From Eubacterium sp. AM49-13BH (lineage in GTDB: Bacteria > Bacillota > Clostridia > Lachnospirales > Lachnospiraceae), in contig NZ_QSEK01000010.1 of NCBI RefSeq assembly GCF_003464165.1, positions 10,492 through 74,491 of the forward strand: a stretch of 64,000 nt of DNA, in the 5' to 3' direction. Below are positions 46,524 to 53,497 of this stretch, piece after piece. The position numbers and the translations under genes are program-made. The notes beneath the pieces are model-generated. The model searched no databases. It was not told the DNA's origin and saw only the letters and a program-made list of their open reading frames with translations. Positions within the stretch are counted from its first letter, which is position 1. Each line of letters begins with the position of its first letter.

Positions 46524-47578
46524 TTAATCCAGCTTAATTATCTTGTGACCTGCCGCCTTAATCAGTCTGTTCATAACAGCCTGCCCTACATTTTTCGTCT
46601 CAAAGCTCTCAGAATATACAAATTCTATATTCTGCTTATCAAAATCTCTTAATATTGCATACAGATTTCTTGCAACACTAAGCTCGTCATCCTTATGACC
46701 TGCTGAAACAATATCCTTGCAGATATATTTACCTTTAGTTTCATCAGTTGCCATAACTGCACATCTGTGTCCTTCTGCTTCTTTTTCAGCTATCTGGCTG
46801 TTAATATATTCAACAACCTTTTCATGTTGACCTTCAACAATAGTCACATCTGCATTAGGTGCATAATGCTTGTATTTCATTCCCGGTGCTTTAGGAACAA
46901 CGCCTTCTTTAAGGCTTCCCATAATAGCAGGGTCGATTATTGTCTTTCCTATAACCTCCTCAAACATAGCCTGAGTAATATATCCAGGTCTTAATATAGT
47001 CGGAACTTCTTCGCTAAGATCAATAATCGTAGACTCCACACCTATATCTACAGTATCATCCTGGATAATCATATCTATACGTCCTGACAGGTCATTAATT
47101 ACATGTTCTGCCCTTGTCGGACTTGGCTTTCCTGATGTATTGGCACTTGGTGCCGCAATATACACCCCTGAACGTCTTATAGCTCTGCTGCCACAGGATG
47201 ACTTGGCATCCTTATCGCAACCGTTCCAAGCCCGCCTGTGATAGAATCAGGTACTTTATCCTGTTTCTTAAGAATCATAGTAAGTGGACCCGGCCAGAAT
47301 TTTTCAGCCAGTACAAGTGCCTTTTCTGGCACTTCTGATGCCAGATCATACAATGCATTGACATCCGCAATATGGACTATAAGAGGATTGTCAGATGGCC
47401 TTCCCTTTGCTGCATATATCTTGGCTGAAGCTTTCGCATCAAGTGCATCCGCACCAAGTCCATATACAGTCTCTGTAGGAAAAGCCACAAGCCCTCCCGC
47501 TCTTAGAATCTGTCCTGCCTGTTCATATATTTTCTTATCTTCTTCTGTGTGTGTTATCTTCTTTATTATTGTTTCCAT
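46524..47578 (-). pseudogene. Sua5/YrdC threonylcarbamoyl-AMP synthase, frame broken once
   Basis: Joined across the break this is a protein of about 350 residues: YrdC domain (1-200) and a C-terminal Sua5 domain (about 230-350). It makes threonylcarbamoyl-AMP for the t6A tRNA modification, normally essential. Seen: PTETVYGLGADALD, KGRPSDNPLIVH, WPGPLTMIL and SANTSGKPSPTRAEHVI. At about 47180 the sequence reads GAGCTATAAGA; one more T restores AAELIRRSGVYIAAPS. Left as it is, the first part stops at residue 133. The break looks like a lost base in a TT pair. Confidence 0.85.
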
Positions 47579-47599: not shown

Positions 47600-48387
47600 T
47601 TATTTCATATTCATCATCAGATATTCTATTATACCACAATACAGAGCATCAGCCACTTTTTCCTGATATTCTTCCGTACACAGTCTCTGCTCCTCTTCTG
47701 GATTAGACAAGAAACCACACTCTGATATAATTGTCGGAAGCTTGGAATGAAGCAGTATGTAATAATTAACATCTGACTTAATCTGCCTTGTTGTACCTAA
47801 CTTCTCACCAAGAATCCCTTGCATTATCTGCGCTATTCTTTTACTTTCCTCAGACTTCTTATAATAAAATACCTGTGCACCTTCTGCCTTAGGTGTGACA
47901 TAACTGTTCTGATGGATACTAATTACCATATCTGCACCACTGCTATTGATTATATCACATCTTCTTTCCAGGTCAGCTTTCTTTTTACTCTTATCGGACT
48001 CCACACTTAAATCATCATCTGTGTCCCTTGTCATAATAACATTAATCTGAGCATCTTCAAGCCGTTCCTGTAATTTTTTTGCAATTGCAGATTAATTTCT
48101 TTCTCTTTCGTTCCGGAAACTCCAACCTTTCCCGGATCAGCCCCGCCATGACCGCTGTCAATAACTATACATTTCTCTGAGAAATTAATATTCATCTCGA
48201 CGGCTTCACCACTTCCTGCATCATCTGACAAATGTTGATTATCACTCACATAATCATCCTTCCCGTTTCCTTTGCCATCTGCCTTTAGCGGCAAAAGTAC
48301 ATTAGCTGTCATATATACAGACACAAGAAGTATTATTGACATTAATGGCAGAATCAGTGTCCTGCTTATATTGGCTTTTTCTGGCAT
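47600..48387 (-). pseudogene. N-acetylmuramoyl-L-alanine amidase (CwlD-like), frame broken once
   Basis: Joined across the break this is a protein of about 260 residues with an N-terminal membrane segment (LILPLMSIILLVSVYMTANVLL) and an amidase_3 domain. The zinc His is in IDSGHGGADPGKVG, and the second half has VMTRDTDDDL (in-frame IMTRDTDDDLS), SIHQNSY and ISECGFLSNPEEE. Such enzymes cut the amide between muramic acid and the peptide; CwlD acts on spore cortex. At about 48088, CAATTG would be CAAATTG, giving INLQIAKKLQERLEDAQINV. A single A is missing. The gene follows sua5 by 21 bases. Confidence 0.85.
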
Positions 48388-48459: not shown

Positions 48460-50151
48460 TTATTTGTTATACTGGCTGATAACAGACCATACAGTGGATT
48501 TCTCAAGTCCTAACTTCCAGCATGCAACACCTGCTGTATTCTCCTGCTGTATAACCTGCATCTTGGCTTCTATAGATTTCTCTTCTTCAAACCATATCTG
48601 TCTTGTAGAACTTCCTACCGTATATGAAGCCACATACTGTCCGCAGTCGTCATTCCATAATGCTACCTGTCCATCACTGTTTAACTGATCGATTGCTGCC
48701 TGCATGCCAACAGCTCTGCTTGTTGTGTTTCCATCTGTTGTTGTCCATATTCTTGTATAAAATGGAATACCTGCTATTACATGTTCCTTACCAACAAGCT
48801 GTACTGTATCCTCAACTGCCTCCTTTACAAATGGAAGTGAAGCTACCGAGCCTGCATCAGTTCCCGCATAATGCTCATCATATGCCATTACGATAACATA
48901 ATCCACAAATTTTGACTGTTCCTTAAGATTATAGCATCTGTTATATGCCTCCGGCTTGTAATTATCTGTCGATAATACAATTCCATTTCTTTCACATGCA
49001 ACAGATAATTCTCTTACAAACTGCAGATAATCCTTTGCATACGCACTCTTAATATTCTCATAATCAAGATTAATTCCATCAAAGCCATAGCTCTTAGCTT
49101 CACCAACGAGTTTGTTAACCATGTTAGTTCTTGCCGCCTTGCTTGAATAAAGCTGTGCAAAATCAACATTTGTATCAAAATCACTTACCAGTGCCCACAC
49201 ATCAATACCTCTCTGATGCATTTTGCTGACGAAATCTGCTGATGCATAACTTGACATGTTACCTGACGCGTCAGTCACAGAATACCATGTTGGAGCAATA
49301 ACATTAACTCCTGATATAGTGGACATATTATTATCTATACTTGAATTACCTGCTGTTCCACTCACCTGAAACCACGCAAGTGTAATCTTTTCATTCTTAA
49401 GAAGAAAATTATGTTCTTCGACAGCCTTCTGTTCTCTTACATATTCAAATGTATCAGACACCTCGGACTTTTTCACATAACCTGTATATCCTGAAACTGT
49501 TGTGACCTTAATCCACTCATCAATATCATCAACATATTCAAGTCTGTCGCCCTTGCTCACATACTCAAGCACCGGACTCTTGATTCCGCCTCTGTATCTT
49601 ACAGCAGCCTTCTTACCAGCAGTTACACACTGCTTAGCTTCGCTTTTAAGAGTTACATTCAGTCTGTCCGGTTCTGAAGCATACTGGTATTCACAGTCAG
49701 TGCGTTCTGCAACGTAATCCCACGCAATAAAGCACTCCCCGTCAACATCACGGATAACACTATAATCCATCGTATAAATCTTACCTGTATCATCTGAATA
49801 ATCATTCTGATTCTTCTTAAATGCATAGATATATGAAGTGTCTGAATACAACGTTGCATCAGACTCCTTATCATAATAAAACCCGACATTAATATTATCT
49901 GCTATAAATTCCTGCGTAAGATACAACCTTCCATCTATATTAATTCCTGTGTCTGGATAACTTTCCCCATCAATCATTACAAGTACTTTGTCCGTATTCT
50001 TATCTATATCAAAATACTTATATCCGCTCATCTTCTCCTTAGTAGGAGTATATCTGACTATAACAAACATTGCTGCTACAATAACAACAAGTCCTGCAGC
50101 CGCAGCGGCAATGATAATCCCTTTAATTCTTTTTCTACCGTGTGTTTCCAT
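48460..50151 (-). CDS. Membrane-anchored glycoside hydrolase family 18 protein with SH3-like domain
   Basis: 563 residues. A signal anchor near residues 8-33 (IKGIIIAAAAAGLVVIVAAMF) holds it to the membrane. Residues about 40-170 are a beta-rich region like copper amine oxidase N-terminal domains. About 175-230 is an SH3-like domain (RYRGGIKSPVLEYVSKGD, VSGYTGYVKKSEV). Residues about 250-563 are a GH18 barrel with DGINLDYE (D-x-x-D-x-D/Y-E type) near residue 355. Members of this layout act on peptidoglycan or spore cortex. It sits near cwlD and precedes nothing else in its unit. Confidence 0.9.
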   Translation of the reverse strand: METHGRKRIKGIIIAAAAAGLVVIVAAMFVIVRYTPTKEKMSGYKYFDIDKNTDKVLVMIDGESYPDTGINIDGRLYLTQEFIADNINVGFYYDKESDATLYSDTSYIYAFKKNQNDYSDDTGKIYTMDYSVIRDVDGECFIAWDYVAERTDCEYQYASEPDRLNVTLKSEAKQCVTAGKKAAVRYRGGIKSPVLEYVSKGDRLEYVDDIDEWIKVTTVSGYTGYVKKSEVSDTFEYVREQKAVEEHNFLLKNEKITLAWFQVSGTAGNSSIDNNMSTISGVNVIAPTWYSVTDASGNMSSYASADFVSKMHQRGIDVWALVSDFDTNVDFAQLYSSKAARTNMVNKLVGEAKSYGFDGINLDYENIKSAYAKDYLQFVRELSVACERNGIVLSTDNYKPEAYNRCYNLKEQSKFVDYVIVMAYDEHYAGTDAGSVASLPFVKEAVEDTVQLVGKEHVIAGIPFYTRIWTTTDGNTTSRAVGMQAAIDQLNSDGQVALWNDDCGQYVASYTVGSSTRQIWFEEEKSIEAKMQVIQQENTAGVACWKLGLEKSTVWSVISQYNK

Positions 50152-50343
50152 TTATCTGCCTTTCCTTTGCACTAAGATACTGACATTGTATCATATTACA
50201 ATAAAAATGGCATACCTTTATTCCCGGAATTACCAACAATAAAAATATGCCATAAACCTAATCATACGCTACGCAAAAGGGATTTCCCATAGAGCATGAT
50301 TTGTGATATATTTTCTTTAGAAGTTTTAGACGTAGAATAATTA

Positions 50344-50943
50344 TCAGGTTACAACTTGACTCAGAATCTTAATGACACTTCCCTTCATCTCAAAAGGATT
50401 CTCTTCCATAGGTGCTTTATATGCTCTGAGTTCAAATTCACGTTCCATGCATTTTGCCCGTTTTTCCTGCCATGTAACTGAAACTATAGGCATGTTTCTT
50501 ACACTGTAGATTCTTCTGATTCTTTCCAGTCTTTTCACACACTCACCATACTTCCACGGAACCATTGAGCCAACAAGAATACGACACTCGCAAGACATAA
50601 CATCTCTCAGACCATCAGCAAGCTTTTCTTTCAGATCCGCAAGATTAACCTCAACAATAACCACATCATAATATTCCGATATAACATGAACGAAACCTTC
50701 TCTGACTCCCCCAAAGAAGTCTATCCCCTTATATGAAAACCCTCGTCTGCTTCCTGCATAATTCTTAACTTTCCCCACATGCTCTTCTTCTTTAATTCTG
50801 TCAAATGAGTCATCAAAGCCAGAACTCACAATAGCTGTTTTCAGATGAAGTCCATTAGAAAAATAGTTAGCAAGCATGATACCAAGCTGCGTTGTTCCGG
50901 CACCGCTGCATAAGCCAATCAGTCCGACAGTCTTATAATTCAT
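50344..50943 (-). CDS. Free-standing ParA/MinD-like protein with GTTQ loop
   Basis: About 199 residues. The start of the fold is VGLIGLCSGAGTTQLGIMLANYF, which matches the position of a deviant Walker A loop but without the two lysines (GAGTTQ in place of GKGGxGKT). The Walker B-like strand is DVVIVEVNLADL. It resembles the C-terminal module of the kinase gene just upstream (GDKAGIGTTHT). ATP binding is doubtful. The start is not certain: ATG at 50943, with a weak purine-rich stretch, or GTG at 50964. The kinase stop is 14 bases away, so the pair is one unit. The role is unknown. Confidence 0.65.
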   Translation of the reverse strand: MNYKTVGLIGLCSGAGTTQLGIMLANYFSNGLHLKTAIVSSGFDDSFDRIKEEEHVGKVKNYAGSRRGFSYKGIDFFGGVREGFVHVISEYYDVVIVEVNLADLKEKLADGLRDVMSCECRILVGSMVPWKYGECVKRLERIRRIYSVRNMPIVSVTWQEKRAKCMEREFELRAYKAPMEENPFEMKGSVIKILSQVVT

Positions 50944-50956
50944 AGCCGCTTCATCA

Positions 50957-52438
50957 TTATTCACTTTTCTTTTTCTTAAACCTCTTAATATATCTGATAC
51001 TACTAATCTTCTCATATAACCTGCCAATACACTCCTTAATTCTACCAGGCCTGTAAACTTTCCATAATCCAGAAAGATTATCCTGTAAGAAATCATTCAT
51101 TGTTTCGTCAAATATAGGATTATCTCCACACCAATCATATATGCATGGCATCCTGTAGCATTTTTTTCCTTTAAACATCACCGACAATTCATAAAACTGT
51201 TCTGCACTCACCAGATTCAGCATATAAACGATATCCTCACTACATTTTGCAAATCTTTTCTTCTCTTCGTATATGTGCTTTCCTGTTACATAAACCATCG
51301 TGTATGAATAATTATCCCCCACCATGTCCACAATACATTTATCATGCATAAGACATCTCATGTTATGCCCCGAATCAACAAGAATAACTTCTGCTTTTAT
51401 TCCTGTAACCGATATCGCATTGTTATAATCTGGAATTATTCTGATGCCCTTATATATATAAGAGCCGTCATCCATCAGCCCTTCTTTAACAAATGCCGGT
51501 ATAACCCTTCTGCTTCCGGACCTGTCTGCCACAACACAGTTAATGCCTTTTTTCTTTAAAAAATGCGCCATACACATTACAGTGTGTGTAGTTCCTATAC
51601 CTGCCTTATCCCCTGCAACCTGTATTATATAAGAGAGTTTTTCATCCGTACCGCCGCCCCAATTCATTATACTTTGTAATTCTTGCTTTAAATATGTGAC
51701 ACTGCTATACCTAAGTCCCCATTCGTGATGCAGTGACTTATTGATAACATGGTACAAACTGGAATATCTGGAAGATATTTCAGACAATTTATGATTCTCA
51801 TCTGTCACAATATGTCCATGAGATACCATAAATAAAATGACCATCCCCAAACTATAGATATCTGACTGGATTACAGCCTTCTCCCTGTTATACTGTTCCG
51901 GTGCAGCATAAAGCGGACTTCCGCTTTCAACTGTCAATCCGGCATTACCTTCAACCGCATTGTCATAATCTATTAATTTAACTTTCCCGTCTTTATCGAG
52001 CATAATATTATCCGGTTTAATATCCATGTGTAAGATTCCATTGCCATTATAACCATGAAGATATTCCAGTATACAACACAATTCAATGCCAATACGACAT
52101 ATCTCATGTACACTCAGATAACCTCTGGTATCTGTCTCGTCATGAACATATTGCCGCAAAGATTTACCATCAATATATTCTTCGATAATGCAGATACTAT
52201 CATCATCTTCTCCAATATTCTGTTCAATATCATAAATAACGGGGATATGGGGATGTTTCAAATTCTTAATAAGATGGGCCTCCTTCATGAGCCTTCTGGC
52301 ATCCTGCTGGTTACCCGAAAATATCTTGGCTACTCTGTACACATCAAGTATACGGTGTCTTACAAGATAAACTTTAGAATGTGTGGAACAAGATAGTTCC
52401 TTTATGATTTCATATTTGTCGTAAAATTCGTTATGCAC
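50957..52438 (-). CDS. Hanks-type Ser/Thr kinase fused to a degenerate ParA/MinD-like module
   Basis: 493 residues. Residues 1-255 form a protein kinase: Lys38 in YRVAKIF, catalytic HMDIKPDN (137-144, Asp139), DYD (157-159) in place of DFG, and AAPEQYN. The Gly-rich loop (ELSCSTHSKVYLV, about 15-27) has no Gly, which is unusual. Residues about 270-450 are ParA/MinD-like with VAGDKAGIGTTHT (275-286) and VVADRSGS, lacking the Lys of a P-loop. No membrane span or PASTA repeats, so it is not a PrkC-type wall sensor. The start is GTG, directly after AGGAG, with a stop codon just ahead, and no other start fits. It is divergent from mecA. Confidence 0.75.
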   Translation of the reverse strand: MHNEFYDKYEIIKELSCSTHSKVYLVRHRILDVYRVAKIFSGNQQDARRLMKEAHLIKNLKHPHIPVIYDIEQNIGEDDDSICIIEEYIDGKSLRQYVHDETDTRGYLSVHEICRIGIELCCILEYLHGYNGNGILHMDIKPDNIMLDKDGKVKLIDYDNAVEGNAGLTVESGSPLYAAPEQYNREKAVIQSDIYSLGMVILFMVSHGHIVTDENHKLSEISSRYSSLYHVINKSLHHEWGLRYSSVTYLKQELQSIMNWGGGTDEKLSYIIQVAGDKAGIGTTHTVMCMAHFLKKKGINCVVADRSGSRRVIPAFVKEGLMDDGSYIYKGIRIIPDYNNAISVTGIKAEVILVDSGHNMRCLMHDKCIVDMVGDNYSYTMVYVTGKHIYEEKKRFAKCSEDIVYMLNLVSAEQFYELSVMFKGKKCYRMPCIYDWCGDNPIFDETMNDFLQDNLSGLWKVYRPGRIKECIGRLYEKISSIRYIKRFKKKKSE

Positions 52439-52630
52439 CTCCTCTTACGACGATACATGAAAAACATCTCCTAAAGAGATAGTACACTATAATATTTTTA
52501 ATTTTCAATATATTTTTTTAAAATTTTTATATTTATTTTATTCATGCGTTATCACACCACCTTTACATATCCATCAAAAATGGGTATTATATCTTTAATA
52601 ATATTAATGAAGTATAGTCAGAGGTGGCTT

Positions 52631-53497
52631 ATGAAAATAGAAAGACTTAATGAGAACCAGATAAGATGTACACTTAACAAGTCTGATCTGGCATCAAGAC
52701 AATTAAAGATTAATGAGCTTGCCTATGGTAGTGATAAAGCGAAAGAACTCTTCCGGGATATGATGCAGCAGGCTTCATATGAATTAGGATTTGAGGCAGA
52801 GGATACGCCTGTTATGATAGAGGCAATTCCTATTTCTTCAGAATGTATTGTCCTTATTGTTACCAAGGTGGACAACCCTGAAGAACTCGATACAAGATTT
52901 TCACGTTTCTCACCATCTGATTCAGATGATGATGAATTCAATTTTGATGATATTGAAACAATTGAAGGTGACAGTTATTCTGATTACTCCCTTCCAACTG
53001 CTGATGACGAGCTTGATGAATGTTCAGCTGCAGAAGAAGAAGAGGGAATACCTGAAGATGAACTTATGAATATATTCAACCGTATGAAAGAATATCTTAA
53101 CAAGGATTTAAGTAATGCATCTTCTGATTCCAAGACTGGTAAACCAGCCACGCAATCAGCTAAAACTGCTGCCAGGGCTGAAGATGACAATTCTGTTAAA
53201 GAGAATATTTCAAGAGTATTTTCATTTGACTCCATGGATGATATAAGCAGTGCTGCAATTATTGTTGACACTTTCTACCATGACAATAATTCTTTATACA
53301 AGAATCCATCAGATAGAAAATATTATCTCTGTATCACTAAGAACAGATGCAGTGCGAAGGATTTTAACAAAGTGTGTAATATACTTTCTGAATATGGTAA
53401 GAAAGAGCCTGGATTCGATAATCACACAGGATTCTTTACCGAGCATTGCGACTGTATTATCGCAGAACACGCCCTTCATATACTACGCACATTATAA
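52631..53497 (+). CDS. mecA: MecA-like ClpC adaptor protein
   Basis: About 288 residues. MecA adaptors bring target proteins to the ClpC unfoldase, for example ComK in Bacillus. The N-terminal domain (MKIERLNENQIRCTLNKSDL, ELFRDMMQQASYELGF) matches the family. The middle (about 90-185) is a long acidic linker (DSDDDEFNFDDIE, DDELDECSAAEEEE) and the C-terminal domain (about 200-288) includes FDSMDDISSAA. The ATG at 52631 follows GAGGTGG; a longer frame lacks a site. It is divergent from the kinase gene. Confidence 0.92.
   Translation: MKIERLNENQIRCTLNKSDLASRQLKINELAYGSDKAKELFRDMMQQASYELGFEAEDTPVMIEAIPISSECIVLIVTKVDNPEELDTRFSRFSPSDSDDDEFNFDDIETIEGDSYSDYSLPTADDELDECSAAEEEEGIPEDELMNIFNRMKEYLNKDLSNASSDSKTGKPATQSAKTAARAEDDNSVKENISRVFSFDSMDDISSAAIIVDTFYHDNNSLYKNPSDRKYYLCITKNRCSAKDFNKVCNILSEYGKKEPGFDNHTGFFTEHCDCIIAEHALHILRTL

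Follow-up and report, generated by a model that had tools for sequence, protein, structure and literature searches.

A Hanks-type kinase fused to a lysine-less TadZ-like module, and its free-standing partner, very probably derive from a divergent Tad-like operon of Lachnospirales

Introduction

In a 64,000-nucleotide stretch of the genome of Eubacterium sp. AM49-13BH (contig NZ_QSEK01000010.1, positions 10,492 to 74,491 of the forward strand; hereafter the window) we analysed two neighbouring minus-strand genes, KIN (50957..52438), which encodes a Hanks-type Ser/Thr kinase joined to a TadZ-like module of ParA/MinD fold, and MOD2 (50344..50943), which encodes a free-standing TadZ-like module. 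The pair in the window and in 20 congeners (genus Lachnospira) lies outside any Tad-like operon, whereas its relatives lie inside one, and our analysis makes it very probable that KIN-MOD2 is derived from such an operon. On balance we favour the more specific reading that Lachnospirales have a divergent Tad-like (type IVc-like) machine with the pair as its kinase and positioning unit, and that in Lachnospira the pair has been orphaned and probably rewired. Below we show the fold of the modules, the retention of the active sites, the gene order and the co-occurrence of the genes, and then weigh what the pair might do.

Results

In other Lachnospirales families the pair heads a Tad-like operon, so that an earlier reading, made from the letters of the window alone (the sequence-only reading), which had taken the pair for a free-standing two-gene system, is not supported in this respect. 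The order of genes there is KIN-MOD2-SAF/CpaB-like-P4-TadZ-like-CpaF-like motor-large gene-small genes, where P4 is a protein of ~190-230 amino acids (aa), the motor is a divergent CpaF-like protein of about 520-700 aa, the large gene occupies the place of the TadB/C platform, and the small genes occupy that of the pilins. The motor of locus L063 matches the T2SSE model PF00437 just above its cut-off (25.3 against 24.9 bits), as expected of a CpaF-type motor, and the SAF protein matches PF08666, as expected of the CpaB/RcpC type, above cut-off both there (E 3.3e-5) and in L068 (E 1.9e-6). The platform and pilin labels follow gene order and size, because Pfam confirmed neither.

Our census of the order Lachnospirales started from the 28 of 147 genomes that carry the module at E<=1e-6, of which 23 were mapped (G001, G040, G057, G058 and 19 others) and five were not (G052, G171, G186, G190 and G291), the first four of these five having no motor. 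The operon is contiguous in G040, G058, G201, G241, G254, G227, G211 and G259. Among the variants, G191 has no called P4, G247 has no TadZ-like gene standing by itself, a contig end truncates G180, G265 and G234 carry a MOD2-type module fused to the kinase with free MOD2 absent, and in G057 the motor sits on a separate contig. The gene mecA, which in the window is the divergent neighbour of KIN (52544..53497, plus strand; PF05389 MecA, E 3.4e-71), lies near KIN in 3 of the 16 mapped genomes outside Lachnospiraceae (G040, G227 and, at ~9 kb, G057), a weak indication that the mecA site may be ancestral.

Within Lachnospiraceae the same genes are found apart. Among 120 genomes of the family, 37 carry the module (E<=1e-7) and 14 the motor (E<=1e-100), and 13 of the 14 motor genomes also carry the module, in each case fused to the kinase (two-by-two counts 13, 1, 24 and 82; Fisher p 4.5e-7, uncorrected for shared descent). 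These counts leave out canonical-size CpaF matches, most of which fall between 1e-20 and 1e-30, as well as 9 genomes, out of 46 that gave a module match at all, which were dropped for short matches in frames of ~220-350 aa; such frames are probably ordinary MinD/ParA proteins, and in other genomes some weak matches of this kind are to P4 in motor loci. Fusion to the kinase is seen in 36 of the 37 genomes (G138, whose module is unfused, was still counted as positive), and 30 of the 37 have an adjacent free module. KIN adjoins mecA in 32 of the 36 kinase-fused loci of the family.

In the 13 genomes with both genes, kinase and motor lie on separate stretches, the kinase next to mecA in 12 of them. 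The SAF gene is found at the KIN locus in G030, G071, G092, G110, G126 and G142, at the motor locus in G066, G093, G158 and G163, and in neither examined stretch in G128; G131 and G079 have additional motor loci, each with its own SAF gene. Thus in 10 of 11 single-system genomes one cluster, and not the other, holds SAF, and the gene stands at the KIN locus in 7 of 13 genomes with a motor against 1 of 23 without (p 0.0013). Because SAF is placed in this complementary manner, the data suggest that the KIN cluster and the motor cluster form one system. In Lachnospira itself the divergent CpaF-like motor was found in none of 20 genomes at E<=1e-30. A kinase search gave a match in 60 of 61 genomes, beyond the genus mostly to the kinase domain only, and a two-motif kinase scan returned chiefly unrelated kinases across phyla, whose 80 loci we did not use.

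Turning to the modules, the C-terminal part of KIN (KINc, residues 268-493; 50960..51637, minus strand) shows in the predicted structure the strand and helix order of the ParA/MinD fold that the sequence-only reading had proposed (mean predicted local distance difference test score, pLDDT, 79.6 for the model of the whole protein). KINc and MOD2 are homologous (hhalign probability 99.65, E 4.6e-25), as had been claimed of one tethered and one free copy, and both indeed have a G-x-G-T-T loop without the lysine of a P-loop: KAGIGTTH at residues 278-285 of KINc (51584..51607, minus strand), with T283 at the Walker lysine position and D355 as the Walker-B-like Asp, and GLCSGAGTTQ in MOD2 (50887..50916, minus strand). 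Residues 268-493 of KIN match no Pfam model in scans at E<=10 and E<=0.1 and a single weak NCBIfam model (lpxK, E 0.075), while MOD2 gives no Pfam match at E<=10 and, in NCBIfam, only one to a response-regulator model, below threshold (E 0.042). A structure search with full-length KIN, the only form of the protein queried, gave a listing filled by kinases and is uninformative on the C-terminal module. With MOD2 read as 199 aa from the ATG at 50943, its start lies 13 bases past the KIN stop, close to the spacing of about 14 bases given by the sequence-only reading; an alternative in-frame ATG at 51015 would lengthen it to 223 aa and let the gene start within the end of KIN. Since 223 aa is the length of most of the closest database relatives of MOD2, which fits a start at 51015, the gap between the genes is uncertain.

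We counted motifs in one kinase per locus from 75 genomes picked for having matches and in 64 free modules, one of which (L192) is not adjacent to a kinase, with gapped rows excluded from what we call readable. The Walker lysine typical of the superfamily is present in none of 74 readable fused modules and none of 63 readable free ones. The Gly preceding the lysine position is kept, and the Walker A Thr/Ser is retained in 74/74 and 62/63, respectively; the Walker-B-like residue is Asp in 74 of 75 KINc and 59 of 64 free modules and Glu in the remainder, and a His follows the Thr in 64/74 fused and 46/63 free modules. Because the Gly, the Thr/Ser and the acidic Walker-B residue are kept though the lysine is absent throughout, the lysine-less modules are, as judged from their residues, a conserved family and not a product of decay. 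The loop had earlier been called degenerate; with the lysine missing in every readable member it is not a one-off degeneration, and according to the available part of PMC10482377 TadZ, too, has a P-loop without lysine and is an active ATPase nonetheless. TadZ is described as an atypical P-loop ATPase of the FleN/MinD type (available parts of PMC10482377 and PMC6668835), and the modules appear to share this character of TadZ/CpaE; lysine loss is not universal in TadZ, since 4 of 8 canonical TadZ proteins that we inspected by eye keep a Lys at the P-loop place. By analogy, the modules would rather probably bind nucleotide.

A free module lies within 400 bases of KIN in 63 of 75 mapped genomes. 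The remaining 12 comprise 1 locus cut by a contig end, 5 with a MOD2-type module on the kinase (a tree split with support 0.41) and 6 with KINc alone. Given these genomes without a free module beside KIN, a single module can suffice.

Modules of this kind occur in further settings. In L221 (559-16945), L214 and L223 a kinase-less Tad-like operon has as its divergent neighbours a module protein and a gene of 1519-1542 aa; that gene class in L221 carries FHA and FtsK domains of the type VII secretion system (T7SS) type, placing Tad-like and T7SS-like clusters next to each other, and an 82 aa neighbour in L221 matches no Pfam family. An 896 aa protein in L178 (9636-12326; genome G079, which has three motor loci) heads a Tad-like operon and has, by eye, two tandem lysine-less modules, together with a long charged coiled-coil-like stretch. 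Lysine-less module proteins are also present in loci that resemble integrative and conjugative elements (L169, L185, L187, L189 and L192, with L189 judged from gene sizes only), among them a kinase-less module protein with a TraG-type ATPase in L169; L185 and L187 are of conjugation type by eye. The long N-termini of the proteins in L169, L187 and L178 look receiver-like by eye and gave no Pfam receiver match, and sequence searches of the PDB with TadZ-like relatives gave nothing useful. The module recurs beside secretion machines.

KIN reads as a 493 aa protein with a GTG start, and its ORF (open reading frame) and that of MOD2 are both found where the sequence-only reading had placed them. 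Its kinase domain spans about residues 1-260 (51659..52438, minus strand), and the Pfam Pkinase model PF00069 matches residues 19-239 at E 2.1e-32, in keeping with the Hanks-type assignment made earlier. The GTG start overlaps an AGGAGG Shine-Dalgarno-like sequence (52436-52445, minus strand), which leaves start codon and spacing ambiguous. The protein has K38, E53, D139, K141, N144 and D157, which include the catalytic Lys, Glu, HRD-Asp, Asn and DFG-Asp. Its glycine loop, ELSCSTHSKVYLV, has Ser in place of all three Gly (S16, S18 and S21), and DYD stands for DFG, both as had been read, so that the glycine-rich loop and the DFG Gly of active Hanks-type kinases are absent.

All 75 kinases of the set keep the HRD-Asp and DFG-Asp, and all 69 that are readable at the Lys and Glu positions keep these two as well. 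K141 is replaced by Gln in 14 of the 75 and N144 by His in 12, neither change occurring in the KIN of the window, and for this reason some relatives, to judge from these positions, may be weak or dead kinases. Of the kinases with a readable loop, 10 of 12 from Lachnospira have no Gly in it, compared with 12 of 50 from elsewhere, and Asp replaces the DFG Gly in 14 of 20 Lachnospira kinases, in 7 of 27 other kinases of genomes without a detected motor (a group that includes G032 and G037, neither of which was searched for one) and in 0 of 28 from motor-bearing genomes. The missing loop Gly and the DYD are lineage features. Since these losses concentrate where the machine is gone, the kinase drifts there with its catalytic core retained. 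We predict from the retained residues, with good confidence, that KIN is an active kinase. Loss of the catalytic Asn did not track loss of the motor (2/28 against 10/47, p 0.19), and we make no claim from it; likewise dropped was the idea that a C-terminal basic helix of KIN is a MinD-like membrane anchor, since 349 of 2000 shuffled versions of this tail attain its hydrophobic moment.

KIN of the full-length type is present in 20 of 22 Lachnospira genomes searched; G004 (72% complete) and G010 (59% complete) gave generic kinase matches only. A MOD2 match adjoins it in all 20, the one in G021 being partial where the contig ends, so that the pair is conserved, and in 19 of them KIN has mecA as its opposite neighbour, the contig of G018 beginning at KIN. 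Among the loci of the genus the pair varies faster than its flanks, with KIN identity falling to 32% and dnaB staying at least 81%. The ratio of nonsynonymous to synonymous substitution rates (dN/dS) against three relatives, 0.13-0.25 for KIN and 0.04-0.12 for MOD2, shows that both are under purifying selection. KIN-MOD2 is a real, conserved and maintained pair and not a chance feature.

Downstream of MOD2 lies a gene for a protein with an SH3 domain and a glycoside hydrolase family 18 (GH18) domain (48460..50151, minus strand; PF00704 E 5.5e-28, PF08239 E 5.9e-8). The stretch from this gene through MOD2 and KIN to mecA (48460-53497) behaves as a block of allelic exchange: it has 74-82% nucleotide identity to G001, the nearest of the genomes compared, against 87-99% for 13 measured flanking genes. 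Against G012, KIN and MOD2 have 96% and the flanking genes 80-99%. Two further genes, at 46524-47578 and 47600-48387, which we take to be of sua5 type and an amidase, are each split into two ORFs in the window and are unbroken in G001, with 351 and 262 aa; the splits are either real breaks or sequencing errors.

Discussion

In the mechanism that we propose, the modules, being TadZ-like, would bind ATP without a Walker lysine and would associate among themselves or join the TadZ-like protein. They might then serve as nucleotide switches that mark the site where the machine is assembled, the tether would bring the kinase to that site, and the kinase could phosphorylate a component of the machine and thereby license assembly or secretion. 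Because the motor is missing in Lachnospira, the pair must act on something else there; it has probably been rewired, and the two candidate targets are the canonical Tad pilus, encoded elsewhere in the genome, and the cell-wall hydrolase encoded next to the pair. The canonical Tad locus of Lachnospira carries an FHA protein (DUF6382-FHA), and FHA domains are readers of phosphothreonine. We consider the canonical Tad pilus an unlikely present target all the same, and the wall hydrolases a slightly less likely one. The presence of canonical CpaF in 23 of 24 genomes, by match and frame length, was considered as support for the Tad target and found uninformative.

For the platform, the pilins and the contact between modules in this picture the analysis gave no support. 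None of five platform candidates (L063, L068, L178, L193 and L194) has a Pfam match to T2SSF, and none of four small candidates matches a Pfam pilin model; a small candidate in L178 has a sub-threshold match to archaeal flagellin (E 0.059). Moreover, in a mirror-tree analysis of 36 loci the co-evolution of KINc with MOD2 was no higher than background, and contact between the two is in our view possible but somewhat doubtful. The kinase domain and MOD2 gave a partial r of 0.22 with 0 of 500 permutations as high, on which we do not rely since linkage can cause it.

Could the pair instead now regulate the cell wall, as a phospho-switch acting locally on the SH3-GH18 hydrolase and the amidase encoded downstream, its link to Tad being ancestral only? 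GH18 lies downstream of KIN in 33 of 36 kinase-fused loci of the family, also where SAF and motor are gone, and the distances of KINc and MOD2 correlate with those of GH18 beyond those of mecA (partial r 0.40 and 0.35, values that none of 500 permutations reached); however, the distances are large and linkage alone could yield this correlation, MOD2 and GH18 are 192 bases apart in the window, some Lachnospira loci have no recognised GH18, and the mapped full operons outside the family have none. We judge this explanation improbable. The exchange block described above, diverged from G001 more than its flanks and, for the pair, matching G012 at 96%, would also suit a role in phage defence or kin recognition, with a kinase system that evolves fast and is swapped between strains, and KIN does match the PADLOC kinases mad6 (E 7.5e-41) and PD-T4-6. 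Yet 24 of the best 25 of 35 PADLOC matches end by residue 260, within the kinase domain (MkoA ends at 272), MOD2 has no PADLOC match, and the site beside mecA is fixed in 19 of 20 congeners (the other being cut by a contig end), unlike a defence island, all of which makes such a role highly improbable.

A relic in decay, the non-functional remnant of a lost Tad-like operon, would account for the missing motor and for the erosion of loop and DFG Gly in Lachnospira noted above, and the DFG Gly is indeed retained in 28 of 28 kinases from motor-bearing genomes against 26 of 47 others (p 7.9e-6, uncorrected for phylogeny, the 47 including G032 and G037). Against decay speak the dN/dS values of 0.04-0.25, the retained catalytic Lys, Glu, Asp and Asp, and the persistence of KIN and MOD2 side by side in all 20 genomes examined, and we give it very little credence. 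The reading that we prefer thus remains that of a kinase and positioning unit of a Tad-like machine, since orphaned.

Tad pili are widespread machines of adhesion and secretion, and to our knowledge little is known about when and where Gram-positive cells build them. A kinase on a TadZ-like module would couple phosphorylation directly to the placement of the machine. The series of split and orphaned forms across genera is a natural experiment on which part of a machine outlives its motor, and doing what, and the family defined here (75 kinases and 64 free modules) offers material for testing the lysine-less P-loop as a nucleotide switch. More tentatively, the operons may represent a new Tad-like subtype, with a soluble kinase on a lysine-less MinD-like switch and free switch subunits, of which the pair is kept without a motor in Lachnospira and other genera; in such a subtype phosphorylation would be delivered where the switch marks, and the motor-less pair would be a stand-alone device for spatial phospho-signalling.

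In line with the sequence-only reading, which knew of no described system of this form, we found no named family in Pfam or NCBIfam, and none of the papers that our literature searches brought up (including PMC10482377, PMC11217815, PMC8467076 and PMC6668835), judged by title, opening of the abstract or passages, reports a fusion of a kinase to a ParA/MinD or TadZ-like module or the KIN-MOD2 operon. The membrane-bound Hanks-type kinases TscD, TsdD and TseD of T7SSc-e, which often have FHA partners, resemble KIN as Ser/Thr kinases encoded in secretion clusters, with no ParA/MinD module mentioned in the available part of their description (PMC11217815). TsfV of T7SSf, an ATPase with a TadZ-like receiver in a secretion gene cluster, is likened here by its description to the module proteins of L221, L214 and L223, which adjoin a gene of EssC size; it differs from KIN in having no kinase fusion and in standing among T7SS rather than Tad-like genes (same source, available part).

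Closer still are the Tad systems. The canonical Tad loci of the same genomes carry CpaF, T2SSF-like, TadZ-like and DUF6382-FHA genes, their T2SSF and receiver matches falling below the Pfam cut-offs, and have a CpaF-type and a TadZ-like gene in common with the operon described here; the operon differs from them in its divergent CpaF, its one large gene in place of TadB and TadC, its own kinase and its separate location. TadZ/CpaE of Tad (type IVc) pili, such as the TadZ of E. rectale (3fkq), is among the closest known systems. Compared with it, KIN has a kinase instead of an N-terminal receiver, MOD2 has no N-terminal domain, there is an extra free module, and the modules form a family of their own, mostly with His after the Thr. 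Thus, while a protein of the TadZ kind in a machine of the Tad kind is already known, the fusion to a kinase and the history of splitting and orphaning are unexpected.
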